From: Halobacteriovorax sp. HLS | Lineage (GTDB): Bacteria > Bdellovibrionota > Bacteriovoracia > Bacteriovoracales > Bacteriovoracaceae | Length of the DNA stretch: 64,000 nt | NCBI RefSeq assembly: GCF_004006665.1 | Contig: NZ_QOCL01000001.1 | Coordinates: 496,001-560,000, forward strand | Reading direction: 5' to 3' | Part shown: in pieces, positions 25,690 through 42,558 of the stretch | How positions within the stretch are numbered: the stretch's first letter is position 1 | Layout of the letters: each line of letters starts with the position of its first letter | Notes under the pieces: model-generated | Databases searched by the model: none | Seen by the model: only the letters and a program-made list of their open reading frames with translations | What the model was told of the DNA's origin: nothing | Position numbers and translations under genes: made by a program

Positions 25690-26625
25690 CTACCATTTAA
25701 AGTGAAACTTCTCGGTAATTGACTTAAAACTTTTGTTAGCAGTGCAAACATATAAGCTTCCATCTGAGTTAAACTCGCTAACTTGATGAAAAAATCGAGG
25801 ATTAAATGAATTAACCAATACAAAACTCATTGTTTCAACCTCATGTTCTGCTAGAACAACATTACTTGAATCTATAGACATGAGATTTTCATAATTAGAG
25901 CTCTTAATCGCCTCTTTTGTTATTTCTTCCCATTCAAAATGCCCCATCTTGAGAGTTCTACTCTTTGAGCATTTTTCTGTATTATACGAAATCATATTTA
26001 CAAAACTCTTATAATCGACTCCATTATGTGCATCCATACTGAGTCCTCTTCTCCACTCCAAAATATTTAAATCAAAAATATCCAACGACTTTAATATATC
26101 GCTAAAAGAAATTGTTTGATTAAAAGCATCTAAGATCCCATCGTAGAATATTTTTTCAAGTATTTGAGAAGGAGTAAATATTGCTTTTTTCCATATTTCA
26201 TCATTAAACTTAATTGTACCAAATGGTTCATTAGACACGATATGTTCAGCTTCTGTGTACTTGAGAGAGCTCATCATCTTTAAACTGGCCAAGAGCGCCT
26301 CATTCTTTACAGGAACTATGGCAAACCCATTACGAGATAAATTTAGGCCAATATCACAGTTTTGAATTAATGAGGAATTAATCTGTAATCCTTCAATCGA
26401 TATAAATCTGCAATCTTCGCTTGGGTAATTATCATAGAATATATTCTCACTAAGAATATAAGAGTCCTTTGTCTCTACAACTTTTATAAATCCATTTTCA
26501 CTAAATATAGGGGCAGCACCGTAGAACTTTAATAAATAATCATAAAGGTCTGTATCTTCAAAACGAATATTTTTTGAAATCTCTACCTGTGCATTATCAA
26601 AAAAAGTTTTTAGTATTTTTTCCAT
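25690..26625 (-). CDS. predicted Fe(II)/2-oxoglutarate oxygenase, large type
   Basis: 311 residues, distantly similar in its C-terminal half to the 324-residue protein at 27155-28129. The likely metal residues are His200 and Asp204 (MDAHNGVDY, with H-x3-D rather than H-x-D spacing) and His280 (FNPRFFHQVSEF); the paralogue has FHMDY and FVHKVEK in equivalent places. The basic residue that would bind 2-oxoglutarate is not obvious. It starts divergently from the small oxygenase at 26660 with a 34-base gap, so their promoters overlap. The oxygenase assignment is moderate. Confidence 0.55.
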   Translation of the reverse strand: MEKILKTFFDNAQVEISKNIRFEDTDLYDYLLKFYGAAPIFSENGFIKVVETKDSYILSENIFYDNYPSEDCRFISIEGLQINSSLIQNCDIGLNLSRNGFAIVPVKNEALLASLKMMSSLKYTEAEHIVSNEPFGTIKFNDEIWKKAIFTPSQILEKIFYDGILDAFNQTISFSDILKSLDIFDLNILEWRRGLSMDAHNGVDYKSFVNMISYNTEKCSKSRTLKMGHFEWEEITKEAIKSSNYENLMSIDSSNVVLAEHEVETMSFVLVNSFNPRFFHQVSEFNSDGSLYVCTANKSFKSITEKFHFKW

Positions 26626-26659
26626 AGATTTTAGATTAACTCTGACCCATACTTAACAT

Positions 26660-27166
26660 ATGAATAATATTCTTGAACAATTAGATAGAGAAGGCTTCAT
26701 ATTTAAACAATATGACCCCTCTATTATCGACTTTCACGACTTAAGCTCTTCTATATCACGACTGAAGTCTTATATTGAGGAGATCATTTCCATTAGCGGT
26801 GAAAGCTTATTTTATGATATCGACACAATAGAATATAAGCAACAGATAAAACCCCATTATCATGTAATCCCAGGAACCTTTCAAGTTGTTGCTTGGATTC
26901 CAGAAGATAATTTCGAAGGTAGAAAATTTATTTTCGGGACTCAAAAGAGTTTAAATACAACAACTCCGAAACTTGGATACTTCTGTATCATGAAGCCTAA
27001 TGATCCTCACTTTATACACGGTGTAACGTCTCTTCAATCGAAGACTTCAATTAGATCTATAGGATTTTCGAGTCTCATAAAAAAGGTTGAAGGTAATCAA
27101 GATATTTTTGCTCAAAATCCCCCTACTCTCTTCAAAGATATTCCAATTGAAAGTCTAATCAATTGA
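26660..27166 (+). CDS. small Fe/2OG-oxygenase-like protein (H-x-H type)
   Basis: 168 residues, clearly related to the protein at 39266-39766 and more distantly to the one at 28122-28652. The likely metal site is His66 and His68 (KPHYHVIPGTF) and His120 (HFIHGV), with Arg132 (SIRSIGF) as the co-substrate anchor. The body, VVAWIPEDNFEGRKFIFG, is a jelly-roll phrase typical of 2OG oxygenases. H-x-H in place of H-x-D is unusual. Its end overlaps the convergent gene by 12 bases. Confidence 0.7.
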   Translation: MNNILEQLDREGFIFKQYDPSIIDFHDLSSSISRLKSYIEEIISISGESLFYDIDTIEYKQQIKPHYHVIPGTFQVVAWIPEDNFEGRKFIFGTQKSLNTTTPKLGYFCIMKPNDPHFIHGVTSLQSKTSIRSIGFSSLIKKVEGNQDIFAQNPPTLFKDIPIESLIN

Positions 27167-28129
27167 AGGCCAACTAGGACTCCAAAGATAATTTGTAAGA
27201 AGTACTATTTCATTTTTCTTACGCAATTTTTCAACTTTATGAACAAACATAGGGTTAAGAGTATTCATTAGTATTACCATTGAGTCAGCAATTTGAATCT
27301 TGTCTATACTAGAAACTCTATCATCAGAAACACTTTCAAAAGGATTTGGAATACTGGGTTGCTCAGCTGGAGACATATCCAGTGCCTCCTTACTAAAATC
27401 TAAAAAATCTTCTCGTTTACCAACAAGTAGTTCCCTCCCCTCAATAGGTTTTTCTTTAGCAAAGTAAATGAAGAACATGTAATGAAGTCTTGAAAAATAG
27501 TCCATATGAAAACTGTAGGGACCGTGTGTACTTTCTAAGTCGTCCTTATCATAAATATATTTAACAATATCTGAAGTTTGTAGTTGATGAGCATTAATAT
27601 GAAAATTCCCTTGAGGGATCTGAGAAACACATTGCCTGGTAATCTCTTTCATATAGTCAGGACCTCTATGTAACTCGGGCCTATCGTAATCAGCTAACGT
27701 TGCAAAGTAAGCATGATAAATAGATTTAGACATATTAAGTTCTTTATTAATACCATGAGGTATAAAAGCTTCATTAAGGGCTTGCAAAGAGAGAGTATCA
27801 TCGACTTGAATATTATTCAAAACACAGTAACCTTTCTCTGCAACTGACTTCCATTCAATAGAGGGCGTAACAGGCTTCAACTCCATCTCTAAGAACATTT
27901 TAGGGATAACAACTCCAACCCTATCAATTCCATCTACAGGGTAATACGTTTCATCATAAAAGTAACCATTGCTATCAACACCAATAAAGAGATGAGAGCT
28001 GTTTTCAGTATAAACTAAAGGACCAAAAATATTTCCATAGAACTCATAAAGCCCTGTTTCTTTGAAAGTATTAAAATTGTTAAACTTACCTTTTCGATAT
28101 CTAAAATAGTTATTTATTTCTTTAATCAT
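27155..28129 (-). CDS. predicted Fe(II)/2-oxoglutarate oxygenase, large type
   Basis: 324 residues from ATG 28129, which overlaps the upstream stop as ATGATTAA; a longer frame reaches 28186. The putative facial triad is His208-x-Asp210 (SFHMDYF) and His297 (NPMFVHKVEK). EGRELLVGKRED between them matches the jelly-roll strand seen in the small family. No distal Arg is visible. It is the last gene of a five-gene oxygenase operon (30407 to 27155). The N-terminal 150 residues, with many aromatics, are unassigned and may bind substrate. Confidence 0.62.
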   Translation of the reverse strand: MIKEINNYFRYRKGKFNNFNTFKETGLYEFYGNIFGPLVYTENSSHLFIGVDSNGYFYDETYYPVDGIDRVGVVIPKMFLEMELKPVTPSIEWKSVAEKGYCVLNNIQVDDTLSLQALNEAFIPHGINKELNMSKSIYHAYFATLADYDRPELHRGPDYMKEITRQCVSQIPQGNFHINAHQLQTSDIVKYIYDKDDLESTHGPYSFHMDYFSRLHYMFFIYFAKEKPIEGRELLVGKREDFLDFSKEALDMSPAEQPSIPNPFESVSDDRVSSIDKIQIADSMVILMNTLNPMFVHKVEKLRKKNEIVLLTNYLWSPSWPSID

Positions 28130-28652
28130 TTCTAAAATCTTCCTTTCTTCCAAGGCCACCTGTGATAGAAATAATTTGATGATCACTAATAAGCTTATCT
28201 ACCCCGTGAAATACATCAGGGTCCGTAGTATCAAGAAAGCAAACAAGTCCATTAGTTGGACGAACCTTCTGTCTTCCTAAGTGACGTTGGATTAAAAAGT
28301 CTCTTCCAACAAAATCCTCACTCTTGCTCAACCAAAGAATTACTTCAAATGGACAAAACTGAGAAACTTCATTATGCATCTCAATCCACTCCCCCTGAAT
28401 CATTTTATTAATATCAAAATGAAAGTCGTTTAAAGTTTGAATTAAATATTCATCCTCTGTACATGTCTTAAAAAAGTCGATCAACTCAAGTCTTAAGCTG
28501 TCTTCTACATCTCTTATCCTATAGCGTAACTCACCATCACAAACACCAAAGTCTTTAAATTCGAGAGACCAAATTTTATCTTCTAAGGCGCTAGGTAGCT
28601 TCTTTTGAACAAAGCAGAATTTATCAAGCAATATACTATTATAAGAAATCAA
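28122..28652 (-). CDS. small Fe/2OG-oxygenase-like protein (H-x-E type)
   Basis: 176 residues of the same family as 26660 and 39266. The metal motif reads His93-x-Glu95 (EMHNEVSQF) with distal His149 (DVFHGVDK). The Arg conserved in the two relatives is Gln159 here (HQIISIT). VILWLSKSEDFVGRDFLI is the shared core strand. It starts at TTG 28652, overlapping the previous TGA. Fourth gene of the oxygenase operon. It may be altered in co-substrate use or inactive. Confidence 0.65.
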   Translation of the reverse strand: MISYNSILLDKFCFVQKKLPSALEDKIWSLEFKDFGVCDGELRYRIRDVEDSLRLELIDFFKTCTEDEYLIQTLNDFHFDINKMIQGEWIEMHNEVSQFCPFEVILWLSKSEDFVGRDFLIQRHLGRQKVRPTNGLVCFLDTTDPDVFHGVDKLISDHQIISITGGLGRKEDFRND

Positions 28653-29239
28653 AATTTCATCACTCCATCTGTCTCAATATCCCACTCATCTACATCTTTA
28701 TCCAACAATGATTCTTTAAACATAAAATTCATTCTCAAAAAATATCTATCACCCCCTGAAATTCCTACGACTTGGTGTGGAAAATGATAACTGGCGGGAA
28801 AAATCACAACTTTTCCAATCTCTGGAGCAATTACTACTTTTTGAATAGGAAAACAAAGCTGTCCACCTTCGAACTCTTTATCGTTTAAATATAACAAGCA
28901 AACAAAAGGTCTTTGCTTTATCGCTTCTTCACCTACAATTACCTGTGTATCAAAGTGAAGGTCGTCATATGCTCCAGTGGGCTGCTTAATGATACCAATC
29001 CCTAAAAGAGATACATCACTTATAGTAAGCAAGCTTCCAAAGTTGTTAAAATATTCTTCAACTAGAGGCTTTAGCTTGAGCTCAAGATCAACGCAGAGTT
29101 TTTCAAGTTCGCACTGTCCTACTTTATCTCTCCAAAACACAAGATCAGAATAGTTTTCAGAATACATATTCCTAATCTTAATTATATCTAAGCATTCTGT
29201 AGCAGAGAAAATATTAGGAAATTGCATTATATAATCCAC
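28649..29239 (-). CDS. prolyl 4-hydroxylase-like 2OG-Fe(II) oxygenase
   Basis: 196 residues of the P4H-like dioxygenase type. The triad is intact: His95-x-Asp97 (DDLHFDTQV) and His155 (YHFPHQV), with Arg165 or Arg169 (DRYFLRM) for 2-oxoglutarate. FVCLLYLND and GGQLCFPIQK are family strands. It starts at GTG 29239 (GGAG five bases upstream), sharing one base with the upstream stop. Third of three tandem paralogues. Confidence 0.85.
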   Translation of the reverse strand: MDYIMQFPNIFSATECLDIIKIRNMYSENYSDLVFWRDKVGQCELEKLCVDLELKLKPLVEEYFNNFGSLLTISDVSLLGIGIIKQPTGAYDDLHFDTQVIVGEEAIKQRPFVCLLYLNDKEFEGGQLCFPIQKVVIAPEIGKVVIFPASYHFPHQVVGISGGDRYFLRMNFMFKESLLDKDVDEWDIETDGVMKF

Positions 29240-29817
29240 TATATCTCCAATTCATCTACTTGATATGCATCGAAATCAATTTTCATTGTGATACGGCAAA
29301 CATGCTTGCTACCTTTTATAACTGGCATAGAGGTATGTGGATAAGAAAAATTACAAGGAAAAATAACGGCCTTCCCAAGCTCAGGAGAAACCTTAACATT
29401 CTGCACGGGAAAAAGTAATTCTCCTCCTTCTTCTACAGCTGTTAAATAAACAAGAATAACAAAAGGCTTAATAATAATATCTCGATTCTTTACTTTTACC
29501 AGTTCCCAATCATAGTGTAGCTCTGTAAACTCTCCAAACTCATCATTCAAAAAACCAATATGAGAAATAGATATAGATTCTAAAGGTAATTGTCCCAGGA
29601 ATCTATCTGAGTATTCTTTTAATGATGGTTTAATTCTTTGTTCTAGTAATTCAAACTCTTCGGCCCAATCTAAATTGGAAGAGAGTTCGTCAGAGTAAAC
29701 TAAATAATCAGTTAATCTATTATTAACTGTTGAATATTTTCTTCTCTTGTCTAGAATTCTTTGACATTGTTCACGAGAGAGAAAATCTTTCCATTCAACG
29801 ACAGCGCTATAACTCAT
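29239..29817 (-). CDS. prolyl 4-hydroxylase-like 2OG-Fe(II) oxygenase
   Basis: 192 residues, second of the tandem trio. The triad is His101-x-Asp103 (ELHYDWEL) and His161 (FSYPHTS); Lys171 or Arg175 (SKHVCRI) is the likely 2OG anchor. GGELLFPVQN is the shared strand. The start shares one base with the upstream stop. Substitutions outside the active site differ from both neighbours, suggesting separate target residues rather than dosage. Confidence 0.85.
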   Translation of the reverse strand: MSYSAVVEWKDFLSREQCQRILDKRRKYSTVNNRLTDYLVYSDELSSNLDWAEEFELLEQRIKPSLKEYSDRFLGQLPLESISISHIGFLNDEFGEFTELHYDWELVKVKNRDIIIKPFVILVYLTAVEEGGELLFPVQNVKVSPELGKAVIFPCNFSYPHTSMPVIKGSKHVCRITMKIDFDAYQVDELEI

Positions 29818-30407
29818 TAGAAATAATCCTTAGACGTCTTAGTACTATTAATTATACTGTCCTTCTTGAAATAATAGGCCATTCTTAATACATATCTATT
29901 GGCCCCAATCGCTGGATTTGTTAAATGCGGAAACATGAACGATGTAGGAAAGATTAACCCTAACCCTACTTTTGGCTTTATAGATGTCTTCTGAATAGGA
30001 AAAATAAGTTCACCACTTTCAAAGTTATCATTAAGATAAATTAAAATAGCGAAGTTTCGAATATACTCCTTATCATTCATGTAAGAGATTTCGGCATCGT
30101 AATGATACGGAATATTAAAATTCTCTTGATGCTCCATTATGGAAATATGCTTTAAATAATAAGACTCACAGTTTAGTAATGTTGAATATGATAAATAACT
30201 CTCAACTATTGGCCTACACTTTTCGTTTAAATCTAGAAATAAGTCACTCCAATGCCTCTCCTGTGGAATACTCCATTCTTTAACTATTCCATGAAGATTT
30301 GCATCTGATCGCTTTGTATCAATATGACTTTCTTTGAGATAATTCTCTATAATAGATTCACAATTCTTTGGAGATAAAATATTTTCATATTCTTGAATAA
30401 AACTCAT
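29817..30407 (-). CDS. prolyl 4-hydroxylase-like 2OG-Fe(II) oxygenase
   Basis: 196 residues, first gene of the five-gene oxygenase operon. The triad is His102-x-Asp104 (PYHYDAE) and His161 (FMFPHLT), with Arg171 or Arg175 (NRYVLRM). The N-terminal half (about 1-90) is helical and probably contacts the substrate. Like its two tandem neighbours it has no export signal, so modification would be cytoplasmic. Confidence 0.85.
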   Translation of the reverse strand: MSFIQEYENILSPKNCESIIENYLKESHIDTKRSDANLHGIVKEWSIPQERHWSDLFLDLNEKCRPIVESYLSYSTLLNCESYYLKHISIMEHQENFNIPYHYDAEISYMNDKEYIRNFAILIYLNDNFESGELIFPIQKTSIKPKVGLGLIFPTSFMFPHLTNPAIGANRYVLRMAYYFKKDSIINSTKTSKDYF

Positions 30408-30485
30408 GCCAAAATCTTACACCTATTGGTTTACTATCGAAATTAAAAACCACTCAACACAGCGCAACATCGTTTTACAAAGGAC

Positions 30486-30515
30486 TCGCCTTATTAGTAG
30501 GATTAAGTAAGGCGA
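30486..30515 (+). promoter_or_regulatory. hairpin covering the ribosome-binding site of a radical SAM gene
   Basis: A perfect 8-bp inverted repeat (TCGCCTTA, 30486-30493, and TAAGGCGA, 30508-30515) with a 14-base loop. Its 3' arm contains the only purine-rich ribosome-binding candidate (AAGGCGA), four bases before the ATG at 30519. The fold would hide the start region. Confidence 0.5.
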
Positions 30516-30518
30516 AAA

Positions 30519-31592
30519 ATGATTACAAGAGATAATTTACAATTCTACGTACGTACAGCTGAAAACTGTAACTTGAACTGCAAACACTGCTTCACATCGG
30601 GACGCAATGGCGATCCTTCAGTATTTAATGCTGAAAATACATCTAATTATATTCAAAAAATTGTAAAAACCTTCAATGTATTGAACTTTAGAGTTGTCTT
30701 ACATGGAGGAGAACCAATGTTAGCTCCAATTAGTGAGCTAAATTGTTTTATTGACCAGCTTCAATCCATCCCACAATTAAACAGTATTGGAATCCAAACA
30801 AATCTGGCCTACGAACTAAGCGAAGAAAAACTCACTTTTTTCAATAATCATTTTAAGCAATATGGAATAGGTACCTCTTGGGATGCAGATCTGCGCTTTG
30901 GACTAGTTGACTTCAAGAGCAAGACTAAGGTTTTAAAACTTTGGGAAAATAATGTTAGAACCTTAATAGAAAATGGACATAACTTAACATTATCTATCTG
31001 CCTATCTAAATATCTAATCGATCATTTTGAGCCAAGACAACTCATTGAATACGCTATTGACCTAGGTTTTCAAAATATTTTATTTGAAAGAATTACGGAA
31101 GATGGAAGCGCTATTACAAATAATTCTATCCGACCTTTGAATCTGCATCTTGATCGATGGCTCCATAAAATGTTTATTCAGACCTTAGAGAATCAATATG
31201 AAAAAAGAATCAACAACTTATTTCTTGGAGAGCTTGCGACATCCTATATTTCTAAAACTCATACTGCTAACAGATGTCGAAACTGTGAATTAAGCCTAAT
31301 AACAATTGGTGCAGCTGGAGACTTATCCGGATGTCCAAACTCTGCAAAGGAAGTCACATGGGGATATATTAATGAACCTATTTCCACCCCCCTCTCTTCA
31401 TCAAACAGGTTAAATGCAATCTGTAAGGAAAAAATACGAAACCCAATTTGCGAACAATGTGATATTAGAGAAATTTGCAACAGTGATTGCTACAAACTTC
31501 CATGGCAAGATAAGATTTGTGCAGCTCCAAAACTTATTATGAAAGAAATGAAAAGAAATAATAACATAAACGATTACCAGAGATTGCTATGA
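30519..31592 (+). CDS. radical SAM/SPASM peptide maturase-like protein
   Basis: 357 residues. The radical SAM motif is Cys17-x3-Cys21-x2-Cys24 (NCNLNCKHCFTSG), followed by VVLHGGEP. The C-terminal SPASM-like region holds many cysteines (CRNCEL, SGCPNS, CEQCDIREICNSDCY), enough for auxiliary Fe-S clusters. This is the layout of anaerobic sulfatase maturases and RiPP maturases; no sulfatase is nearby. First gene of a three-gene operon with an unknown 151-residue protein and a JmjC-like oxygenase. Confidence 0.88.
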   Translation: MITRDNLQFYVRTAENCNLNCKHCFTSGRNGDPSVFNAENTSNYIQKIVKTFNVLNFRVVLHGGEPMLAPISELNCFIDQLQSIPQLNSIGIQTNLAYELSEEKLTFFNNHFKQYGIGTSWDADLRFGLVDFKSKTKVLKLWENNVRTLIENGHNLTLSICLSKYLIDHFEPRQLIEYAIDLGFQNILFERITEDGSAITNNSIRPLNLHLDRWLHKMFIQTLENQYEKRINNLFLGELATSYISKTHTANRCRNCELSLITIGAAGDLSGCPNSAKEVTWGYINEPISTPLSSSNRLNAICKEKIRNPICEQCDIREICNSDCYKLPWQDKICAAPKLIMKEMKRNNNINDYQRLL

Positions 31593-32044
31593 AAGAATGG
31601 CATATTAGACATAAAATATTTCATCAAATCTTTAAAGATATGGACTTAGGAGACGATCTCTCTAAAGAAATAATAATAGAAGAACATGATGAAGACAGTA
31701 TTGTAAAAAGGGCGTTACAATACCCTCAAATACAAACAAAAGAATTATACTACCCAGGGAAATCGTTCTGTGTGGCCATAATATACGCTAAACTTCTAGA
31801 AAAACACTTTAAAGAAGACTTCTATGATTCTTTAAATGATGAGCGGCTTCTATATGAAAATGACCCATATTTCATACCTTATAATAAGGCCAAATCCACC
31901 TACGATAGAATTCTTTCAGAGTTTGATTGGGATCTATTCGAGAACCTAAACAAAGCTTCCGAGAATTTCAATAAAACCTGTGAATACTTTGATAAGGAAT
32001 TTCTCTTACATGAAGACACTAGAATGTTCGCCCCTACTAAGTAG
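31589..32044 (+). CDS. small protein between radical SAM and JmjC-like genes, unknown
   Basis: 151 residues, not recognised. It is acidic and helical, with aromatic-rich phrases YPGKSFCVAIIY and NDPYFIPYNKA and no signal peptide. It starts by ATGA overlap with the radical SAM gene and overlaps the next gene by 35 bases, so it is tightly coupled. It could be a chaperone or recognition subunit for the maturase, but nothing in the sequence proves this. Confidence 0.7.
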   Translation: MKEWHIRHKIFHQIFKDMDLGDDLSKEIIIEEHDEDSIVKRALQYPQIQTKELYYPGKSFCVAIIYAKLLEKHFKEDFYDSLNDERLLYENDPYFIPYNKAKSTYDRILSEFDWDLFENLNKASENFNKTCEYFDKEFLLHEDTRMFAPTK

Positions 32045-32564
32045 TGATGATATTGAAAAAATTTTTAAAAGTAGTCATCTCTTTTCATTAAATAGCTTTT
32101 ACACTATTGACCCTACAACTAGAACCTATGATGCAAATATAAAGTTTGAATCCTATATTGAGTACTCTACCTTTATTAGAAAGTCTTTTCTTGCAGGAGA
32201 AACTATTATAGTAAAAAATCTAGAGAACTTTACACCAAAAATTAGAATGAGATGTTCTGAACTATCCTCCAATGTAGATGTTCACATGTACCTTGTGCCA
32301 CCAGAAGGAAGAAGTTCTTTCCAATACCATATCGACGATCGAGATGTAGAAATAGAAATGATCTATGGAGAAAAGGATTTTTTTATAAAAGAAAATGAAC
32401 GAGAAAAAGTGGTTACTTTAAAGAAAAGTGACAGACTTACTATTCCAAAAGGAACTTTCCATAAAGCAGTACCAAAAGGGCCTTCATGCTTACTCAGCTT
32501 TGGAATATTGGAACCAATTAACTACGACATACCAGGAGGAATCACCCAAGAGGATCTATTTTAA
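32010..32564 (+). CDS. JmjC/cupin_8-like 2OG oxygenase (ribosomal-oxygenase type)
   Basis: 184 residues from ATG 32010 (AAGGA ten bases upstream); a GTG at 31980 gives a longer frame. The metal residues are His107-x-Asp109 (QYHIDDRDV) and His151 (KGTFHKAV). The stretch around LVPPEGRSS, then HIDDRDVEIEMIYGEKDF, closely follows the JmjC fold of YcfD/NO66-type oxygenases, which hydroxylate Arg or His. It is shorter than those enzymes and lacks their dimerisation and winged-helix parts. It overlaps the convergent radical SAM gene by nine bases. Confidence 0.75.
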   Translation: MKTLECSPLLSSDDIEKIFKSSHLFSLNSFYTIDPTTRTYDANIKFESYIEYSTFIRKSFLAGETIIVKNLENFTPKIRMRCSELSSNVDVHMYLVPPEGRSSFQYHIDDRDVEIEMIYGEKDFFIKENEREKVVTLKKSDRLTIPKGTFHKAVPKGPSCLLSFGILEPINYDIPGGITQEDLF

Positions 32565-33482
32565 ATTTTTATACCAATCTAGAAGATGAAAAAAGCCATT
32601 ACATGACAGGTCTAAACTCTCAACCTTCCTATAATGCTCTGTTAAACAATTCCCCAAATATTCGCACTTAGAACAAATTTCGTTCCTCTGAACTCTAGCA
32701 TGTTCTAGTCGCTCCCATTTCTTATAATCATCTAATCTATCCAACTCTAAAAAATATTCATCTTCTTTTTCGTCAAACTCTAGAACAGCAAATTTTCCAT
32801 TTGGAGTTATATAGAGATGATCATCTGAAAAAGCATTTCTTTTCTTACTAAGTGAGTTTTCAATTTCTCTTTCATTTACAAACTCAAAATTCTTAACGAT
32901 ATCTGATTCAATCCACTTTTTCACAAACTCCTCAAAGTCTTTAAAACTAACCTCGAAAGAGTTCGCTTGATTGGTGGAATATGGCTTAATCTCGACACTT
33001 ACTACATTACCAATTGAATTAAATGTCGAAATCATTTTACTAACATCCATCTTCAACAATTTAGACGAAGCAAGCATAAGAATAGAAATTTCTTTATTAG
33101 TTGTTATTATATTTTGTAGAACTTTTTCAGAAGACTCTCTGGCTTCAAAATCAAAACTAACTGATAAAGAGACATGTTCTTTTAAAAAGAATGGATGTAC
33201 TTGATAGAGATTTGTTACTATATTTATACTGGGGTCGAAAGCTTCATACAAAATTTCATCCAACTCTTCTAAATATTCATTAGATAAAAGAGATATTTCA
33301 CCGCCATAGAGATCAACATGATCTACACTATGGTTTGAATCCTTCAGTTCCTTAATTAACTGCCGCAGCTTAGTTAAAGGAAGAGTCAATGGATCAGATA
33401 ATTGACTCTTAGTAAGATAACAAAAGTCACAACGAAAGTTACATTGATAAAGCGGATTAATGGACAGATTTAAAAAACTCAC
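32556..33482 (-). CDS. radical SAM protein with C-terminal Cys cluster
   Basis: 308 residues. Cys14-x3-Cys18-x2-Cys21 (CNFRCDFCY) opens the barrel and YGGE is the SAM-contact motif. The C-terminus holds C-SKC-EYLGNC and a later Cys, a reduced SPASM or twitch-like site. It starts at GTG 33482, overlapping the previous TGA. It is shorter than its neighbours and may act as a partner of the upstream SPASM protein. Confidence 0.84.
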   Translation of the reverse strand: MSFLNLSINPLYQCNFRCDFCYLTKSQLSDPLTLPLTKLRQLIKELKDSNHSVDHVDLYGGEISLLSNEYLEELDEILYEAFDPSINIVTNLYQVHPFFLKEHVSLSVSFDFEARESSEKVLQNIITTNKEISILMLASSKLLKMDVSKMISTFNSIGNVVSVEIKPYSTNQANSFEVSFKDFEEFVKKWIESDIVKNFEFVNEREIENSLSKKRNAFSDDHLYITPNGKFAVLEFDEKEDEYFLELDRLDDYKKWERLEHARVQRNEICSKCEYLGNCLTEHYRKVESLDLSCNGFFHLLDWYKNLK

Positions 33483-34489: not shown

Positions 34490-34502
34490 CAAACGTCATC
34501 CA

Positions 34503-34531: not shown

Positions 34532-34560
34532 TACATAAATACTACATCTATAGGCGGATT

Positions 34561-35169: not shown

Positions 35170-35924
35170 TGGAAAATTTAAAAACTATACCAATGTCTAC
35201 GGAAGAGATCCAAGAGATATTTCTTAATAGTGATCTTCATTATAATATCGATTTAAAGAATTCCACTTTAAAAGGTGAAGCATTTGTTACATATATTGCT
35301 AATATGCAAATCAATTGCTCACTTGCAGATATCGACCAAACACCTAAAGAAGAGAAGTTTGAAGTTTTAAAGTACTTCCTTAATTTTAGACAAACAATAA
35401 AGTGTGACACCCTTTTGCATACAACGGCCCTACTTCTATTAAAAGCACTTAGGGCCCCTGTGGATCAATCAAGATCTTGGCTATCTGAAGAAGAGTCTGA
35501 AGAGTTTTTACAAAATAACAAAGAGCTAATGCTTCAGGCTGCGTTATTTATAAATTCCGCTCCCGTTTTTGTTGCGGCCTTCAATAAAGATTTTAAAGAA
35601 GAAATCTTTACTCAAGCATGTGAAGATGGAGAAATACAAGTAATTGATGATCCTGAAATTGTAGGAATCAACCTTATCAATTTATTCAGTATTCCAGACT
35701 TTACAGAGACCTTCATAGCTCAATATGACAACGTAATGCCTCCTGAAACCAAACAACTAAGATACTATAAAGCACAGGTTGAAAGGCTACAATATGACAA
35801 GAAAACTGTCTTTGATATTTTCTTAGGTCTAAAAGAGAAATCCTTCTTAATGTCTTTTTCTCACTTACTTCTTAACAATAGTAGTGAAAAAGAGGAACTG
35901 AGCTTACTTGAAAGCTACATCTAA
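35169..35924 (+). CDS. conserved island protein, function unknown
   Basis: 251 residues, acidic and alpha-helical, with no recognisable domain. Its start shares one base with the stop of the candidate substrate gene (TAATG), so the two are translationally coupled. It has few cysteines and no metal-binding pattern, which argues for a scaffold, chaperone or substrate-recognition role rather than catalysis. No clear RRE (PqqD-like) fold could be seen by eye. Confidence 0.72.
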   Translation: MENLKTIPMSTEEIQEIFLNSDLHYNIDLKNSTLKGEAFVTYIANMQINCSLADIDQTPKEEKFEVLKYFLNFRQTIKCDTLLHTTALLLLKALRAPVDQSRSWLSEEESEEFLQNNKELMLQAALFINSAPVFVAAFNKDFKEEIFTQACEDGEIQVIDDPEIVGINLINLFSIPDFTETFIAQYDNVMPPETKQLRYYKAQVERLQYDKKTVFDIFLGLKEKSFLMSFSHLLLNNSSEKEELSLLESYI

Positions 35925-35926
35925 GA

Positions 35927-37039
35927 ATGATTTGCTTAGCTGATAAGGTTTACTTAACTTACGCAGAAAGTTCTATAGGTCCTGACAATGCAGAAAATGT
36001 AGCCGACCAATACGTTCAAATTATTGATCGTGGCCTAGTTGATATTCAGAACCACTTTTTTCAAAAAAATAGAATTCATTATTCTAAAAATATTACACAA
36101 CTCTTATCTGAACAAAGTTTTTCGGAATTCTTTGATTCACTTATATCTAAAAATGAAAAAGTGTATATTTATGCAGATGAGAAGTCCTTTTGCGAATTTT
36201 TTATAAAATGGTTTAAAGGAATATTTCCAAAAGCAAACTGTGAAACTCTTTATCATATATTTCAAAGCTATTCTGACTATCAAAGACTACTACCTAATAG
36301 ACGTAAAGTTTATCTAGATATTGATAATGATAGTAGGCATATTCCCGTTCAAGAAATTTTGCCACTATACTGGAAAAAATCACTAGAAGAATTCAGAGGA
36401 CTTTTTGAACTATACTCTTCTTTTGAAATACCTATGCCTATTAAATTAAGAGTGTCTAATGAAGTTCAACTTATACAATATATTTTAAATAAGGAATCAT
36501 ACTTAACTTCAAATATGGCACTAGCATTTGCTAGGCTTTATAAAATTGCATTTATGAAAGAGTTTCTAGGTCTTAAAAGAACCTGTATTAGAAAGCTTTA
36601 CACATTAGCTAAGACTGATCATTCTTTAAGCTTTAAATTCACAAGCAGCTCATCAATATACGAACAACTAAGTCAAAATAAGAAATTAAACTTCTTACTC
36701 GATAACTCTTTTGACCAAGAAGATGAAAAATCCTTTGATAGCTTTATGAAGCTTGAACAACATATTAATCAATTAAACACTCTAATTGAAATCGATATGT
36801 TAATTTCTGACAAGACTGACAATCCTTGTATTTCTGGATACTTAGAAAATGGCAAACACCCAAAACCACTAGAGCTTATCGCTGTCGAAATTGAACAAAT
36901 AAGCCCTTATGAAATTCTTAAAAGTTCAGTACAAGATAATGAATTAAATATTTTTCTCGTGCAATCTATTCTATCATTGAAGAATGCTGGTAATAATGAT
37001 TCTCTACTAAATCAGCTTAACATGGAATTTGAAATTTAA
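35927..37039 (+). CDS. conserved island protein, function unknown
   Basis: 370 residues, two bases after the preceding gene. The N-terminus (ICLADKVYLTYAESSIGPDNAE) is strand-rich and the remainder helical, rich in Leu, Phe, Tyr and Lys. No catalytic motif, membrane segment or signal peptide is seen. It sits directly before the SPASM maturase gene, which suggests a substrate-presenting or accessory subunit. I do not recognise the family. Confidence 0.72.
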   Translation: MICLADKVYLTYAESSIGPDNAENVADQYVQIIDRGLVDIQNHFFQKNRIHYSKNITQLLSEQSFSEFFDSLISKNEKVYIYADEKSFCEFFIKWFKGIFPKANCETLYHIFQSYSDYQRLLPNRRKVYLDIDNDSRHIPVQEILPLYWKKSLEEFRGLFELYSSFEIPMPIKLRVSNEVQLIQYILNKESYLTSNMALAFARLYKIAFMKEFLGLKRTCIRKLYTLAKTDHSLSFKFTSSSSIYEQLSQNKKLNFLLDNSFDQEDEKSFDSFMKLEQHINQLNTLIEIDMLISDKTDNPCISGYLENGKHPKPLELIAVEIEQISPYEILKSSVQDNELNIFLVQSILSLKNAGNNDSLLNQLNMEFEI

Positions 37040-37040
37040 T

Positions 37041-38162
37041 ATGTATCATAGAGACTTTGAACAAACTGATTCTCAAAAGAAAATGTCTTTAATTGTTAAG
37101 CCTACAGAGGCCTGTAACTTTTCTTGTGACTTTTGCAGCTCAACCGAATTGGTTGAAGACAAAAAAGAACGACTAGAGTTAAAAAGAATTTATGAGTTCT
37201 TAGAGAGATTTCCTGAAACAGATAGAATTTTTGTTGTTGGAGGAGATCCTTTAATGATGTCTCCTAAATATTATTTAGAACTCATTAATCATCTCGAAGA
37301 ACATAACTATCCTGCTCTCATTTCTATGACGACAAACTTGTGGGATTTCTATAAAAAGCCTGAAAAATGGACCGCGATTTTGGCCCATCCAAGAGTTGAA
37401 GTAGGAACCTCTTTTCAATATGGAGAAGGTAGAAAGATAACAAAAGATCTAGTTTTTACAGAGTATATGTTTCGTCTAGTCGTTAAGAAATTTAAAAAGT
37501 ATATTCCACATAAAGAACTATGCTTTCTAGCCGTTGTGAACAAAGAAAATGAACACCTCGCTATCGACCATGTATACTTGGCCAAAGATATGGGTATGCA
37601 ATGTAGACTAGTCTATGCAAATAAATCGGGTCTTTCTGGTGAACCATATCCTCTTTCTAAGCTATATAAAATTTTTATTAAGATTTGGAAGCTAGGTCTT
37701 GTAGAATATGAGCAAACAACCTTATCTATAATTGATAAGCTCGTAGGAGTTGAAGTCGCTTGCCCACTTTCTAGAAATTGTGACCACTGGATGAGATCTC
37801 TAAATCCAGATGGGAGATACTTCACTTGTGGTCCACTTAATGATGACCTTGATCCAGAAAATGAAATTGATTTTGATAAAGAGGTTATAAAGGGCGAGAA
37901 GTTTCACCTTCCAATGCAGATGAATCCAAAAAACCAATACCTTAAACAAGAGTGTTTTGGATGCGAAATGTTCCAAGTTTGCAACGGTTGTCGTAAGCAT
38001 ATCAAAGATTTAAAAGATTCTAATATGGTCGAAGAACACTGTACCAATATGAAGTCCATTATTGGAGAACTTAAAGAGATGTCTAATGATGAAGACTTAC
38101 TAATTATGCAAAAGGAAATAGATCACTTAAGTAGAGAAAATGAAAAAGTTACTTATCAATAA
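37041..38162 (+). CDS. radical SAM/SPASM maturase, paralogue of the protein at 33479
   Basis: 373 residues from ATG 37041; TTG 37029 is an alternative start. Cys25-x3-Cys29-x2-Cys32 (CNFSCDFCSS), VVGGDPL, and a full SPASM set: CPLSRNCDHW, FTCGPLNDDL, ECFGCEMFQVCNGCRKH and a final EEHC. About 30 helical residues trail the SPASM region. Shared phrases with the minus-strand copy include TNLWD, VEVGTSF and KPT..CNFSC. It probably carries out the main radical modification on the substrate encoded at 34561. Confidence 0.9.
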   Translation: MYHRDFEQTDSQKKMSLIVKPTEACNFSCDFCSSTELVEDKKERLELKRIYEFLERFPETDRIFVVGGDPLMMSPKYYLELINHLEEHNYPALISMTTNLWDFYKKPEKWTAILAHPRVEVGTSFQYGEGRKITKDLVFTEYMFRLVVKKFKKYIPHKELCFLAVVNKENEHLAIDHVYLAKDMGMQCRLVYANKSGLSGEPYPLSKLYKIFIKIWKLGLVEYEQTTLSIIDKLVGVEVACPLSRNCDHWMRSLNPDGRYFTCGPLNDDLDPENEIDFDKEVIKGEKFHLPMQMNPKNQYLKQECFGCEMFQVCNGCRKHIKDLKDSNMVEEHCTNMKSIIGELKEMSNDEDLLIMQKEIDHLSRENEKVTYQ

Positions 38163-39285
38163 AAATGGCCCTAAGACGATAGAATCTTTTCTCCATGCTA
38201 AAAAAGACTTTTTACAACAAGAAGAAGTTTTGAATAGCATCTTAAAAGAAAAGGCACCTCAGTATACAGAAATTGAAGTTTCATTCTTTCAGCTTTGTGA
38301 ACTTCACTGTAGGTTCTGTTGGCAGGATAGTTATGACCCTACTGGTATTACAACAATTGTCAGTAAGGCCCAGACAGTACTAAACTACCTTAAGGATCAA
38401 AAAGACTCACTTCGAGATACGATTCAAGTTCATCTTCTTGGTGGAGAACTCTTTGAAGATAGTAATGATTACTACTCTCAATATTTTGATTTTATAACTA
38501 TCATTAAAGATTATTGTGATACGAACCTACCAGAGAAAAAACTTCTATTTGTTTTCTTAACAAATATGAATTTTCAACTTGAAACAACAAAATCAAAACT
38601 CGAAGTTTTCTTAAATTCACTAGCTGAAAATGGTACTAATTTTATACTTACTACCTCCTGGGACCCAAGCGGTCGTCCCTTAAAAGGAGAGATAAATACA
38701 AAATTTCATTCAAATATTACCTATTTTAAAAATTATCTATCCGAAATAACCTTCGTACTGACAAAGCCCACTATCAACAAACTACTTAATAATCAGTATG
38801 AATATCTACAGCTACTCGTTGATGAAGGGTTCACAATTGACTTTGACTACTATATGCCCACAACTAATGCCGAATCACTTATGCCAAGTGATTGGGATCT
38901 ATTGAATGCATTTCGAATGCTCATTAAGACATTTCCAAATATTAGAAAGCTAAAGGCCTGGACACAAAATATTAATGCTCCTACAAAGTTAACATGTGCA
39001 AGCTTAAGTAAAATCACAATATTACCTGATGGTACAATTACTAATTGTAGACATCTCGATTACAGTGATGAAAACTTCTCGACTAAAATAATTAATGAGT
39101 CTAACAGCTCGATGATATTTAATTTTATTTCAAAAAAAGAATGTCTCTCCTGCTCTTACTTTGAACAGTGTCCGTTAAGCTGTTTTCTTATGTCAGACAG
39201 TAAACACTTCAGCTCTAAAAAAGAGTTAGATGAGTGCTTTTACAAAACTCTCTTTAAAGAAAAGAATGAACAGAGACCTGTATAA
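38140..39285 (+). CDS. radical SAM protein, second type in the operon
   Basis: 381 residues. Cys53-x3-Cys57-x2-Cys60 (CELHCRFCW) after a 50-residue N-terminal extension; LLGGE is the SAM-contact motif. The SPASM-like end includes KLTCASLSK, TNCRHLDY, ECLSCSYFEQCPLSC and a last DECFY. Trp in place of Tyr/Phe after the third Cys is less common. It overlaps the upstream maturase by 23 bases and the small oxygenase downstream by 20. It is not closely similar to the 33479/37041 pair, so it probably does a different reaction. Confidence 0.87.
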   Translation: MKKLLINKNGPKTIESFLHAKKDFLQQEEVLNSILKEKAPQYTEIEVSFFQLCELHCRFCWQDSYDPTGITTIVSKAQTVLNYLKDQKDSLRDTIQVHLLGGELFEDSNDYYSQYFDFITIIKDYCDTNLPEKKLLFVFLTNMNFQLETTKSKLEVFLNSLAENGTNFILTTSWDPSGRPLKGEINTKFHSNITYFKNYLSEITFVLTKPTINKLLNNQYEYLQLLVDEGFTIDFDYYMPTTNAESLMPSDWDLLNAFRMLIKTFPNIRKLKAWTQNINAPTKLTCASLSKITILPDGTITNCRHLDYSDENFSTKIINESNSSMIFNFISKKECLSCSYFEQCPLSCFLMSDSKHFSSKKELDECFYKTLFKEKNEQRPV

Positions 39286-39766
39286 ACAAATTCAAGAAGA
39301 AGGCTTCGTGTTTAAAACCTTTGAGTCGACTACGGAGTTTAAAAAACTTGCCCTACATTCATCTCCAGATGATGAAGTACTCTTAGGCCATATTCATAGA
39401 ATACTAGAATCTTTCTTTGTTCCTATAAATAATTTACAAATAGTCTTTGAAGATTTTAAACAAAATGACTCAAATGATCTACACACCCATTTGATTGCAG
39501 CAGATTATCAGGTACTCATCTGGGTAACAGAAGACTCTGATTTTTCAGGAAGAGACTTCCTTTACGAGAAAGTACCATCACAGACAAAACGCTTTCGGCC
39601 TAGTAATGGTGATATTTGTTTTATGAAGACAAATGATTTACGGTTTCGCCACGGAGTATCTACATTAAAATCAGATTCACATATTCGTACAATAATTATA
39701 AGTGTGAATTGTAACGCCAAAAATGGAGAACATTTAACTGTCTCTCAAAGTCTTGATTCAATTTAA
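39266..39766 (+). CDS. small Fe/2OG-oxygenase-like protein (H-x-H type)
   Basis: 166 residues from ATG 39266, chosen because the paralogue at 26660 aligns from this Met (EEGFVFKTFES against REGFIFKQYDP); ATG 39230 is also in frame. The predicted metal site is His73 and His75 (DLHTHLIAAD) and His129 (RFRHGVS), with Arg141 (HIRTIII). VLIWVTEDSDFSGRDFLY is the shared core. Last gene of the substrate operon, so it probably acts on the same product. Confidence 0.72.
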   Translation: MNRDLYKQIQEEGFVFKTFESTTEFKKLALHSSPDDEVLLGHIHRILESFFVPINNLQIVFEDFKQNDSNDLHTHLIAADYQVLIWVTEDSDFSGRDFLYEKVPSQTKRFRPSNGDICFMKTNDLRFRHGVSTLKSDSHIRTIIISVNCNAKNGEHLTVSQSLDSI

Positions 39767-40125
39767 CTAAGAGAAATCCATCCCATATCTGGACCGGTGT
39801 ATTGAAGATAAATTTTTTCACCAGTTAAGTGAGAAAATAATTCCTTCATTTTGATCTGCCCCTGCTTGGAGTTGATCCTCTCATTTCCAGGATCAATAAT
39901 ACGATTACTAAAAAGCCTTGATAATCTTCCTGCTTCTATTTCAACTATAGATACAAACGGCACAGGCTCTACGGGAAGAACAATTGCCCCTTTTTTCTTT
40001 ATATCTTTTGCCGCAACAACCTCTGTCCCTTTCCCATACGAAGACTTTGGAACAAATGTTGTAACGAACATAGCTGAAATAATCGATAAGAACCCACGTC
40101 TTTCTAGCTTTTCTTCTTCTTTCAT
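39763..40125 (-). CDS. small exported protein with Tat-type signal
   Basis: 120 residues from ATG 40125 (AGAG upstream; TTG 40143 possible). The N-terminus carries twin arginines and a hydrophobic stretch (ERRGFLSIISAMFVTTF), matching a Tat signal and suggesting export of a folded or cofactor-bearing protein. The mature part of about 90 residues is basic, without recognised motifs or cysteines. It follows the pilin-S74 gene by five bases and would be co-expressed with it. Confidence 0.65.
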   Translation of the reverse strand: MKEEEKLERRGFLSIISAMFVTTFVPKSSYGKGTEVVAAKDIKKKGAIVLPVEPVPFVSIVEIEAGRLSRLFSNRIIDPGNERINSKQGQIKMKELFSHLTGEKIYLQYTGPDMGWISLS

Positions 40126-40130
40126 AATCT

Positions 40131-41324
40131 CTACTTTATGCAAATTTTAGAGTTTGGTGAAATCTCACATATAGCCTGCTGCATCTCATCCACCCTCTTA
40201 CGTAAAATTTTATTCTCTTCATGAAGCTCTTTAACAGCTTGGATAGCAACTGCCGTTAATTGAGGATATTTTACAAGAAGAACGCCACTCGTTCTATTTT
40301 TAACAACAAGACTAGGATATACCTTCTCTAAATCCTGGGCCAATACGCCAATATCTCTTCTATCATCTGCCTTCCATTTAAAACGTACTCCGCTCAACTT
40401 CTCTAAATCTTTAAGTACATTTTCTAATGGATGAATATTTCTCTTTAGTCTCTTATCAGACTGCATTGCAATGTACTTTCCATTAGCAACTGTAATATGC
40501 TCATTAAAAAGTGCTGTTCCTGTAAATGTTGAATTACCCGATACTGTCATTCGAGCATTCAATGTAATATTATCTGTCGTAGCACTATCACCTATAACCG
40601 TTGTATTAACTGTAGGAGATGCGGCTAGACTCTCCGTTCCTTTAAATAAATAACGAGCATCTAAATCAGTGATCAGGCCATCAATATATCTTTGCGATAC
40701 TGCTTGTTGCTGAGCAGCTGCATCATTAGGAATTGCGGCAATGCCAGGGTATGGAACAAGGTCGCAACTCTGAGAGGCAGAATTGAATGTCCCTCCAATA
40801 TTTTCACAAGAGTTCTTTGTAGCGCCCGCTGCACTATTAAAACAACCAACAAAGTTATCGGCCAAATCTGTAACGACAGAAAGAGTTACTACTTTTCTAA
40901 GGTTTTGCGCTCCCTGTGCAACATTGCTTGTTTTCTGGATACCTATAACTAAATCAAAAGTACCCACCTTCGAAGTTCCATCACTGGCCAAAGATATATT
41001 TTCAACATCTAAACCTGTAAGAATAACTTTTCTATTACCATACTGAGATCCCACAACAAAGACATCAGCTGCATTTGAATTTTGAATACTACCTACACTA
41101 GTATTTGCAGCAAGATTAATTCCTGTAAATGTATTCTCACAAGCCTTTTCATTTGTTAACGTTTGAGCTATTCCATTGGTGACCAAGGTAACTTCAGATT
41201 GAGTTTCAAATGTTTTTTGAGACTTCATCATATTATCTACAAGCCTCATTACGCCAAGAGAAACGACTCCTAGCAAGCCTGCGGCAACAACAACTTCTGC
41301 AAGAGAAAAACCTTTATTATTCAT
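40131..41324 (-). CDS. type IV prepilin-like protein fused to a peptidase S74 chaperone domain
   Basis: 397 residues. The N-terminus is a class III prepilin signal: short leader MNNKG, then FSLAEVVVAAGLLGVVSLG with Glu at position +5, to be cut after Gly5. The middle (about 60-280) is Ala/Ser/Thr-rich with six or so Cys. The last 109 residues are a peptidase S74 intramolecular chaperone, as in phage tail spikes: Ser289 in SDKRLKRNI, the GVLAQDLEKVYP strand, and a C-terminal coiled coil. Self-cleavage before Ser289 would release the coiled-coil part. This is an unusual join of pilin anchoring and spike trimerisation. Confidence 0.85.
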   Translation of the reverse strand: MNNKGFSLAEVVVAAGLLGVVSLGVMRLVDNMMKSQKTFETQSEVTLVTNGIAQTLTNEKACENTFTGINLAANTSVGSIQNSNAADVFVVGSQYGNRKVILTGLDVENISLASDGTSKVGTFDLVIGIQKTSNVAQGAQNLRKVVTLSVVTDLADNFVGCFNSAAGATKNSCENIGGTFNSASQSCDLVPYPGIAAIPNDAAAQQQAVSQRYIDGLITDLDARYLFKGTESLAASPTVNTTVIGDSATTDNITLNARMTVSGNSTFTGTALFNEHITVANGKYIAMQSDKRLKRNIHPLENVLKDLEKLSGVRFKWKADDRRDIGVLAQDLEKVYPSLVVKNRTSGVLLVKYPQLTAVAIQAVKELHEENKILRKRVDEMQQAICEISPNSKICIK

Positions 41325-41328
41325 AAGC

Positions 41329-41883
41329 CTATTTTACCTTTACCCAATGTCTATTATTCACTTCAATTCTAACCGTTTCCGAACTAATACTTTCAGCGAT
41401 TTCTTTTTTCTTATAAATGCCAACAATGCGTTCTGGGTAATCTCTCTTTTCCTCAAGAGTCATTTCTGTCAAGAATCCATTCTCATCATTTGTTAAAGGA
41501 GTTCCACACTCATATTCTTTATCTACATAAGCAAGAACCCAACCGGCAACGGCTATTGGAACCTCTTTAGGATAGCGCCCTTGACCCACTCCAAAACCAA
41601 AAGTATCTGAAGCAATTCCAATTACTGACTTTTGGCATCTCTTATCCGCGATCATTGCCCCTTCTATTGTATCGACGTAACACTTTCCGTACTCAAGATC
41701 CCCCATGAGTAATTGAAAGTCAGCAACATCATTCCAAACAGAATTCCATACTTTCTCTGCAATAAAACTTCCTGTCACGGAGTTAGAGCTAGTCGAAGAT
41801 AATGCGAGATCATTACCAGTTGTCCAATTTGTGACAGATCCATTTGTAGAGTTTATAGATATACTTTTTAAAACAGTAGGCAT
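41329..41883 (-). CDS. phage tail-fibre-like protein
   Basis: 184 residues. A Ser/Thr/Asn-rich start is followed by WNSVWNDVADFQLLMGDLEYGKCYV and SVIGIASDTFGFGVG, then PIAVAGWVLAYVD and YPERIVGIYKK. This order resembles the C-terminal autoproteolytic or shaft domains of phage tail proteins (peptidase G2-like), an identification by eye only. There is no signal peptide or pilin leader. It sits five bases upstream of the pilin-S74 gene, so it may be a partner subunit of a displayed filament or a target of the hydroxylases. Confidence 0.6.
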   Translation of the reverse strand: MPTVLKSISINSTNGSVTNWTTGNDLALSSTSSNSVTGSFIAEKVWNSVWNDVADFQLLMGDLEYGKCYVDTIEGAMIADKRCQKSVIGIASDTFGFGVGQGRYPKEVPIAVAGWVLAYVDKEYECGTPLTNDENGFLTEMTLEEKRDYPERIVGIYKKKEIAESISSETVRIEVNNRHWVKVK

Positions 41884-41937
41884 TATTATTTCTCCAATAT
41901 TACGTATAGCTTAAATTTTTATTCTCTCAACCTACTT

Positions 41938-42558
41938 CTATGATAGTTGAGAAGATTTTGTTTTCGATGTCACATAGCCTTGTGCTGAAGCAATTTTTTC
42001 AACATTTAGAAAATATGAGAACCTCATTAAATATCTCGTCTGATCTAATGGCGGCGTAGTTTTATGTGGAAATAATTGATTCGTAGGAAAAATTATTAGT
42101 GAACCTGTAGTAGGTTTAAAAACTTGTTTTTGAAGTGGAAAGATTATTTCACCTCCACTTTCATTTTCATTCAAATAAAGTAAAACAAGAAAATCTCTTT
42201 GATGGATATCATTTGCCCCATCATAAACAAAAGGAGCGTCAAAGTGCTCAGGAGAAAACTCACCAACCCTTTGCTCCCAAAAGACGCCATGACTAAAATT
42301 ATAGTCCTCTCGATAATTAAATAATGGTTCCAAATAATTTTCTATTTCAGTTGAGATTTTTAAATCTAGCGACTCTAAATCATTTGACCAATCTTGAGAA
42401 AGATCATCTCTTTTTAAGTACAATTCTCTGATTGTCTTATCTCTATCTTGAACTTTGCGAGTATCAATATCAGATAAATGCTTATCTAAGTTATATTTTG
42501 ATATCAATTGATTACATTGATCTTTAGTTAAAAAATCTTCAACAAAACGAATATACAT
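41938..42558 (-). CDS. prolyl 4-hydroxylase-like 2OG-Fe(II) oxygenase
   Basis: 206 residues, the fourth P4H-like paralogue of the island. The triad is His105-x-Asp107 (SPEHFDAPF) and His165 (QLFPHKT), with Arg175 or Arg179 (TRYLMRF). GGEIIFPLQKQ matches the tandem trio at 28649-30407. It is the first gene of the unit with the tail-fibre-like, pilin-S74 and Tat-signal genes, which ties a hydroxylase to the surface components. Confidence 0.86.
   Translation of the reverse strand: MYIRFVEDFLTKDQCNQLISKYNLDKHLSDIDTRKVQDRDKTIRELYLKRDDLSQDWSNDLESLDLKISTEIENYLEPLFNYREDYNFSHGVFWEQRVGEFSPEHFDAPFVYDGANDIHQRDFLVLLYLNENESGGEIIFPLQKQVFKPTTGSLIIFPTNQLFPHKTTPPLDQTRYLMRFSYFLNVEKIASAQGYVTSKTKSSQLS

Follow-up and report, generated by a model that had tools for sequence, protein, structure and literature searches.

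A Halobacteriovorax island best read as a chromosomal copy of a phage-type radical SAM cassette, with a Cys-His-x-Ser protein tail as its putative target

Gene clusters in which radical S-adenosylmethionine (rSAM)/SPASM enzymes mature ribosomally synthesized and post-translationally modified peptides (RiPPs) usually hold one or two rSAM genes, and RiPP precursors usually combine a conserved leader with a variable core. The nearest described idea to the locus reported here is the Hxs system (HxsA, HxsB, HxsC and HxsD; models TIGR03979, TIGR03978, TIGR03977 and TIGR03976, respectively), in which, as in our locus, the genes of two paired rSAM maturases adjoin that of a larger protein with C-terminal His-x-Ser units. 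In predatory Bdellovibrio, mosaic adhesive trimer (MAT) fibres are phage-tail-fibre-like surface fibres with an S74 chaperone (S74-less MATs exist), and MAT proteins have a signal peptide followed by a conserved beta-rich domain of ~130 residues (PMC10769870). Related genes in the phages FLC6 and SURPRISE13 have been annotated as accessory, their function unknown (PMC8066314, PMC11898562). A 183-kb marine T4-like TARA genome with 12 rSAM genes has been discussed only as a user of iron-sulfur (Fe-S) clusters (PMC5332604). We analysed a 64-kb window (the whole stretch of DNA under study, G000:C1:496001-560000) of the 3.84-Mb Halobacteriovorax sp. HLS genome, in which a first-pass annotation had proposed that five rSAM proteins and ten non-haem iron oxygenases form a multi-step modification system around the product of open reading frame (ORF) 34561. 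Comparative data support a predicted system of this kind, and the island is best explained as a phage-type cassette for protein maturation in a chromosomal copy, which probably remodels the chemistry of a virion or fibre protein at its CHxS tail, this tail staying attached as the tip. ORFs are named by their lower coordinate (Table 1), so that 37041, 39266 and 32010 of the first-pass annotation are 37029, 39230 and 31980-32564 here.

The 34561 protein and its homologues share a C-terminal tail of ~20 residues, CHx[SN]CHx[SN]CHx[SA]R[GS]RR, which in the window protein consists of CHxS repeats ending SRGRR. Among 54 non-redundant homologues the median pairwise identity is 17% in the body and 75% in the tail; the Cys-His that starts the tail is present in all 54, the His of the last unit in 53 and the R-x-R-R end in 48, and variants include CHGNFPPPCHGSRGRR and CHSNCHGSCHGSI. 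Such a tail is borne by 79 of the 4,828 ORFs of the fetched loci, every one of them no more than 6 kb from a gene of the p251 or rSA family (below), and at 48 of 59 distinct p251 loci a tail protein is encoded on the same strand at a distance of 4.5 kb or less; contig edges or tail variants explain all but one of the p251 loci that have none nearby. A near-invariant tail on an unconserved body, encoded beside the same rSAM genes, bears out the earlier choice of the 34561 product as substrate candidate, and a conserved tail with a free body inverts the leader/core pattern usual in RiPPs. No NCBIfam or Pfam family describes the tail protein.

Co-occurrence of the island's genes in relatives had been set as the test of the proposed system, and for rSAM genes and 34561 homologues it was found. 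Among 129 genomes of the order, the 37029 family (rSC) is present in 13, 12 of which also have a 34561 homologue, and in the thirteenth the contig ends at that point; the pair was found in none of the other 116, and the sole further match to the 34561 profile in the order's genomes is partial (E 0.04). From these loci we define a core of rSA (30519), rSB (32556), rSC (37029 and 33479), rSD (38140), p151 (31589), p251 (35169) and the tail protein. The window has no member of another rSAM family, which has 30 copies in 13 loci. The core shows the marks of rSAM-type RiPP maturation, namely CxxxCxxC motifs with an auxiliary Cys cluster and a ribosomal precursor co-conserved with its maturases. A gene for a prepilin-S74 protein (40131 in the window) adjoins the cassette in nine loci and the 41329 gene in 11, and at other bacterial loci the neighbours are ordinary chromosomal genes (e.g. 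cytochrome genes in G104). No rSC gene was found in 72,556 plasmid records.

Matches of p151 and p251 to PHROG families led to the finding of the cassette in phages. It is abundant in viral contigs (315 confirmed rSC relatives in IMG/VR), and of 50,697 phage records rSA and rSC match an identical set of seven: Agrobacterium Atu_ph07 (two records), Sinorhizobium Phosso, Pseudomonas pPa_SNUABM_DT01, and Burkholderia FLC6, FLC8 and SURPRISE13. All four cultured jumbo phages that were read encode the tail protein (YP_009611835.1, XYS97446.1, QTH80265.1 and XBS47665.1) in the gene order JmjC/cupin-rSA-tail-p251-rSD..rSC-rSB, and cassettes of cultured phages lie near baseplate, sheath, spike or other structural genes. 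The usual order in 84 viral loci is [cupin or JmjC]-rSA-tail-p251-oxygenases-rSD-(B12-type rSAM)-rSC-rSB-p151-2OG (2-oxoglutarate) oxygenase, with 4–10 rSAM genes per locus where the full core is held; the phage oxygenases are of the Cupin_2/JmjC_2, 2OG-FeII_Oxy_5 and Asp_Arg_Hydrox types, and S74 families neighbour the cassette at 14 viral loci as well as in other bacteria. A single phage-to-bacteria transfer was considered and is not shown; the rSC tree requires five label changes for the bacterial rows, though a single origin may still hold.

Gene order in Atu_ph07 points to a link with the virion. Near its cassette, whose rSC gene is gp165, are gp180 (a 4,449-residue structural protein) and a baseplate wedge gene, with the tail sheath on the opposite side. 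Electrospray ionization tandem mass spectrometry of Atu_ph07 virions found 131 proteins, which derive mostly from coding sequences (CDS) 31–76, 170–215 and 284–329 (PMC6102473). The tail-protein gene is CDS 170 (gp170), and the published virion cluster starts exactly there; the numbering was checked and agrees for sheath gp140, portal gp198 and prohead core gp204. This boundary suggests that gp170 was detected in virions.

Contigs in GTDB species genomes assigned to Euryarchaeota, Rhodobacteraceae and Bacteroidetes share the layout of IMG/VR phage contigs (L086/L166, L087/L172 and L089/L196) and therefore appear to be mis-binned phage contigs; the genomes so labelled (Euryarchaeota SP339, Rhodobacteraceae Water_Bin34 and Bacteroidetes UBA4009) were treated as viral and not counted as evidence that the cassette has spread in those taxa. 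Some viral loci have two tandem tail-protein genes (~70–137 residues each as fetched) and up to nine rSAMs (L087 3483-4243, L095 3411-4228, L192 20711-21312 and L204 10822-11516), an arrangement that suggests a putative heteromeric tip. An IMG/VR sub-type within L142-L158 (e.g. L144, L145, L149, L151, L153 and L158) has the tail CHSNCHGSCHGS(I/L) without RxRR, together with one B12-type rSAM and Asp/Arg-hydroxylase-like and S74 proteins; rSB, rSD and p151 were not found at its loci.

The five rSAM proteins of the first-pass annotation all proved real: each has CxxxCxxC (residues 17, 14, 12, 29 and 53) and Pfam or NCBIfam rSAM profile matches, and motif positions give each additional C-terminal cysteines of the SPASM/twitch type. 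Radical_SAM (PF04055) matches are above cut-off in 32556, 33479 and 37029 and below it in 30519 (E 7e-4) and 38140 (E 1.4e-3), both of which also match rSAM/SPASM NCBIfam models and have C-terminal Cys clusters. Other rSAM groups in the same genome (C4 ~85–88 kb and C14 ~44–47 kb) were rejected as paralogues of the cassette; they belong to different families and have no CHxS tails. The first is a triplet (L047, C4:85000-89000), one protein of which has an N-terminal SPASM domain, and ~2 kb away from it is a prepilin-like relative of 40131; the second is a pair (L048, C14:44000-47000) that adjoins glycosyltransferase/ABC genes.

Eight of the ten proposed oxygenases have support from profile, fold or homology, and the other two, 27155 and 25690, rest on weak motifs (HMD..H with profile similarity below threshold in 27155; no clean iron-binding triad and no Pfam or NCBIfam match in 25690). 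PF13640 matches above cut-off with HxD..H are found in 28649, 29239, 29817 and 41938, and the AlphaFold model of 28122 (pLDDT 80) matches 2OG-Fe(II) oxygenases in the PDB by Foldseek (6n1f, E 2e-7; prolyl 4-hydroxylase 4j25), so that these five combine the beta-helix fold or the Pfam profile with an HxD/E..H motif. ORFs 26660 and 39230 are homologous to 28122, yet have HxH in place of the expected HxD/E. The JmjC_2 (PF08007) family, to which 31980 belongs, includes His and Arg hydroxylases of ribosomal proteins, which fits a tail made of His and Arg. The ten do not form a conserved set: most recur in one relative (G077), and the other relatives have one JmjC/cupin protein plus a few variable 2OG enzymes.

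The island genes are tightly packed and overlapping, as had been noted, and the ORF layout gives seven same-strand blocks and not the six transcription units counted earlier. The island is a chromosomal insertion: in four congeners the site is empty and the flanking genes 23800 and 42724 are ~190 bp apart, DNA homology to that site ends at 25618-25626 and restarts near 42653-42724, and 18-bp direct repeats lie at both junctions. The ~17-kb island is thus one acquired or lost block, which also takes in 39763, the prepilin-S74 protein 40131 and 41329. Its GC content (0.336) matches that of the flanks (0.337 and 0.352), and third-position GC is alike, so composition gives no support for recent foreign DNA, and the acquisition was not recent or the donor had a similar composition. 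No capsid, portal, terminase or integrase gene was found among the scanned island ORFs. IMG/VR holds 13.8 kb of the island as viral genome IMGVR_UViG_2883826669_000001 (L141), in which no structural or packaging genes were found. The left-border gene 23800-25557 encodes a 585-residue protein, kept in all four congeners, with a weak GH35 match (E 0.006).

Table 1. Features of the island in the Halobacteriovorax sp. HLS window.
Feature	Coordinates	Strand	Basis or remark
Left 18-bp direct repeat TTGTTAGACTTTCTTAGA	25655..25672	+	At island junction; imperfect match to right copy
Putative non-haem iron enzyme, weakest case	25690..26625	-	42% homologue in G077; weak profile match, to 27155 only
28122-family 2OG-oxygenase-like, HxH..H	26660..27166	+	Homology to 28122; 49% homologue in G077
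Putative 2OG-type oxygenase, HMD227..H316	27155..28186	-	58% homologue in G077; weak profile match to 28122 family
2OG-Fe(II) oxygenase, HNE93..H149	28122..28652	-	AlphaFold model against 2OG oxygenases
2OG-Fe(II) oxygenase, HFD95..H155	28649..29239	-	PF13640
2OG-Fe(II) oxygenase	29239..29817	-	PF13640; nearest solved structures are prolyl 4-hydroxylases
2OG-Fe(II) oxygenase	29817..30407	-	PF13640
rSAM/SPASM-type rSA, core family	30519..31592	+	Profiles; adjoins tail-protein gene in phages
p151, 151-residue core partner	31589..32044	+	Matches phage family phrog_20737
JmjC_2/cupin-type Fe oxygenase, HID..H	31980..32564	+	PF08007 E 3e-7, above cut-off; equivalents in Atu_ph07 and Phosso
rSAM rSB, core family	32556..33482	-	PF04055 above cut-off
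rSAM/SPASM rSC, second copy	33479..34492	-	PF04055 above cut-off; 39% identity to 37029
Tail protein, candidate precursor, with conserved and putatively modified C-terminal NYCHSNHCSHSNHGSRGRR	34561..35169	+	Homologue comparison
p251, 251-residue core partner, usually adjoins tail protein	35169..35924	+	Phage family phrog_20767
370-residue protein	35927..37039	+	Weak homologue in G107; weak phrog_36207 match
rSAM/SPASM rSC, core family	37029..38162	+	Profiles; abundant in IMG/VR, in 6 cultured jumbo phages
rSAM/SPASM-type rSD, core family	38140..39285	+	Profiles; conserved in loci
28122-family 2OG-oxygenase-like, HxH..H	39230..39766	+	Homology to 28122; 38% homologue in G077
126-residue protein, RRxF-type N-terminal signal	39763..40143	-	44% homologue adjoining cassette in G050
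Fibre protein: type IV prepilin N-terminus, C-terminal Peptidase_S74 chaperone (SDKRLK)	40131..41324	-	PF07963 and PF13884 above cut-off
184-residue protein strongly associated with multi-rSAM clusters	41329..41883	-	Genome distribution
2OG-Fe(II) oxygenase	41938..42558	-	PF13640
Right 18-bp direct repeat TTGTCAGACATTCTTAGA	42656..42673	+	At island junction; congeners have a single copy

Among the remaining genes, p251 has a confidently predicted fold (pLDDT 88) and its homologues are from phages only; a fold assignment was rejected for want of a convincing PDB match (best VIA, Z 3.9). The fibre protein 40131 matches phage tail-fibre PHROGs (E 2e-27). The 41329 gene occurs in 15 of the 129 genomes, 11 with this cassette and three more with another multi-rSAM cluster. 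The latter three genomes (G047, L138; G128, L139; G003, L140) have no copy of our cassette; the cluster that adjoins their 41329 gene has up to seven CxxxCxxC ORFs in 20 kb and a different Cys-rich candidate precursor, with N-terminal MACSG.HC and a C-terminus of the CICNSDCNCNAVCNCHNNCGCHY type, and in G003 it also adjoins a 39763 homologue.

We envisage that p251 and/or p151 would present the C-terminus of the tail protein to the rSAM enzymes. These would modify C-H positions in the Cys-His-x-Ser units, by cross-links or otherwise, and JmjC/2OG oxygenases would hydroxylate tail residues (His, Asn, Ser, Arg or Pro). Still attached, the finished tail would serve as the tip of a virion component or an extracellular fibre: the tail protein would be a tail-associated virion protein in jumbo phages and, in the bacteria studied here, a fibre akin to the prepilin-S74 protein encoded next to it. 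Contact with target cells through a tip that is rigid, cross-linked or metal-holding would explain a conserved tail on a divergent body. Several points weigh against such a scheme: modification of the tail is putative and deduced from comparative data, gene proximity is what ties the tail protein to the prepilin-S74 fibre as a candidate partner, and the presence of gp170 in virions is suggested by a cluster boundary in the Atu_ph07 report. In addition, a signal peptide is not obvious in the bacterial tail protein, oxygenase content differs among loci, so that some oxygenases may not act on the tail, and the idea that 41329 is homologous to the C-terminal domain of Atu_ph07 gp176 was rejected (E 0.14), although a neighbour gene in G107 is homologous to the Phosso equivalent of gp176.

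It is unlikely that the cassette instead makes a conventional RiPP, in which the body would be only a leader and the modified tail would be cleaved off to act in free form, as a metallophore or a small bioactive peptide. The short Cys/His-rich C-terminus, the multiple rSAM/SPASM enzymes, the precursor encoded beside its maturases and two ABC transporter genes that adjoin one locus (G050) would all suit a RiPP, but no conserved protease or exporter was found in the island or across the loci compared (genes elsewhere could serve), the leader/core conservation pattern is reversed, and the cassette sits among virion genes of lytic phages, with the published virion cluster starting at the tail-protein gene. 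Somewhat less likely again is that the modified tail serves an intracellular phage or bacterial enzyme or regulator as its redox or metal cofactor site and has no part in a surface structure; rSAM and cupin proteins do mature protein-derived cofactors in other systems, and the tail is Cys/His rich and nearly invariant, but the body matches no enzyme family and the neighbours are fibre or structural genes, not metabolic ones. It is very improbable that the rSAM and oxygenase genes accumulated side by side as auxiliary metabolic genes unrelated to one another (e.g. for nucleotide or DNA hypermodification), since four rSAM families keep a conserved order and an almost obligate linkage to the tail protein in phages and bacteria alike, even though the phage copies and the T4-like genome were published as accessory genes and as an Fe-S user, respectively (above).

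If the tail does stay attached as a modified tip, RiPP-like chemistry becomes part of a lytic phage particle, and bacterial relatives of predatory genera encode the same machine chromosomally; we know of no other case of rSAM enzymes that serve a phage particle. Phage genes now listed as auxiliary or hypothetical would gain a function, and 4–10 uncharacterised rSAM enzymes would at once have a defined substrate sequence. More tentatively, and a little short of an even chance in our judgement, jumbo phages and Bdellovibrionota may share the first known rSAM maturation system for a virion or surface-fibre protein, in which 4–10 rSAMs and the Fe oxygenases turn a C-terminal (CHxS)3-RxRR tail into a tip that is cross-linked, may hold metal and is used by the particle or cell on its target, and whose load may explain the Fe-S assembly genes of some marine T4-like phages. 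The idea of an attached, modified tip is directly testable on cultured phages, the virions of one of which have already been analysed by mass spectrometry.

How does the cassette compare with described systems? The first-pass annotation could match the combination to no named system, and this stands; the Hxs and rSAM RiPP models all score below cut-off. The G107 tail CHSSHSSHSSHSSRGRR resembles HxS repeats, and HxsC matches 33479 and 37029 weakly. However, the HxsA models (TIGR03979, NF038309 and NF038296) reach at best E 0.0078, in one of 20 tail proteins, the maturase scores are 38.1 against a cut-off of 267.9 bits for HxsC and 24.4 against 370 bits for HxsB. Of 20 proteins scanned none matches HxsD, and 31589 shares an L-ND-like motif by eye only. 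The island differs from Hxs in the Cys of most units, the R-x-RR end, at least four different rSAMs, the oxygenases, p151/p251 and the phage hosts. The rSAM/SPASM RiPP maturases (darobactin DarE, dynobactin DynA, PapB, YhhB and FxsB) share the rSAM core and SPASM-type cysteines, and 30519, 33479 and 37029 have some of their best NCBIfam relatives in this group, but no equivalog cut-off is reached (best about 48–51 versus 340–650 bits), and our loci have 4–10 rSAMs versus the usual one or two. Like MATs, 40131 has an S74 chaperone with the SDxxxK motif (60 bits, cut-off 22); unlike them, it begins with a type IV prepilin methylation motif instead of the MAT signal peptide, and the accessible part of the MAT account reports no accompanying rSAM or oxygenase genes (PMC10769870). 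The rSAM/2OG-oxygenase accessory genes of jumbo phages are, in FLC6 and SURPRISE13, the same genes as the cassette, and the T4-like TARA genome is probably a relative; those earlier accounts recognise neither the tail protein nor a unified cassette, and in the open-access literature searched we found no paper that joins the phage rSAM/oxygenase genes to a substrate. We file the cassette as a predicted rSAM-type, RiPP-like maturation system, whose putative use at a virion tip would be a novel case.

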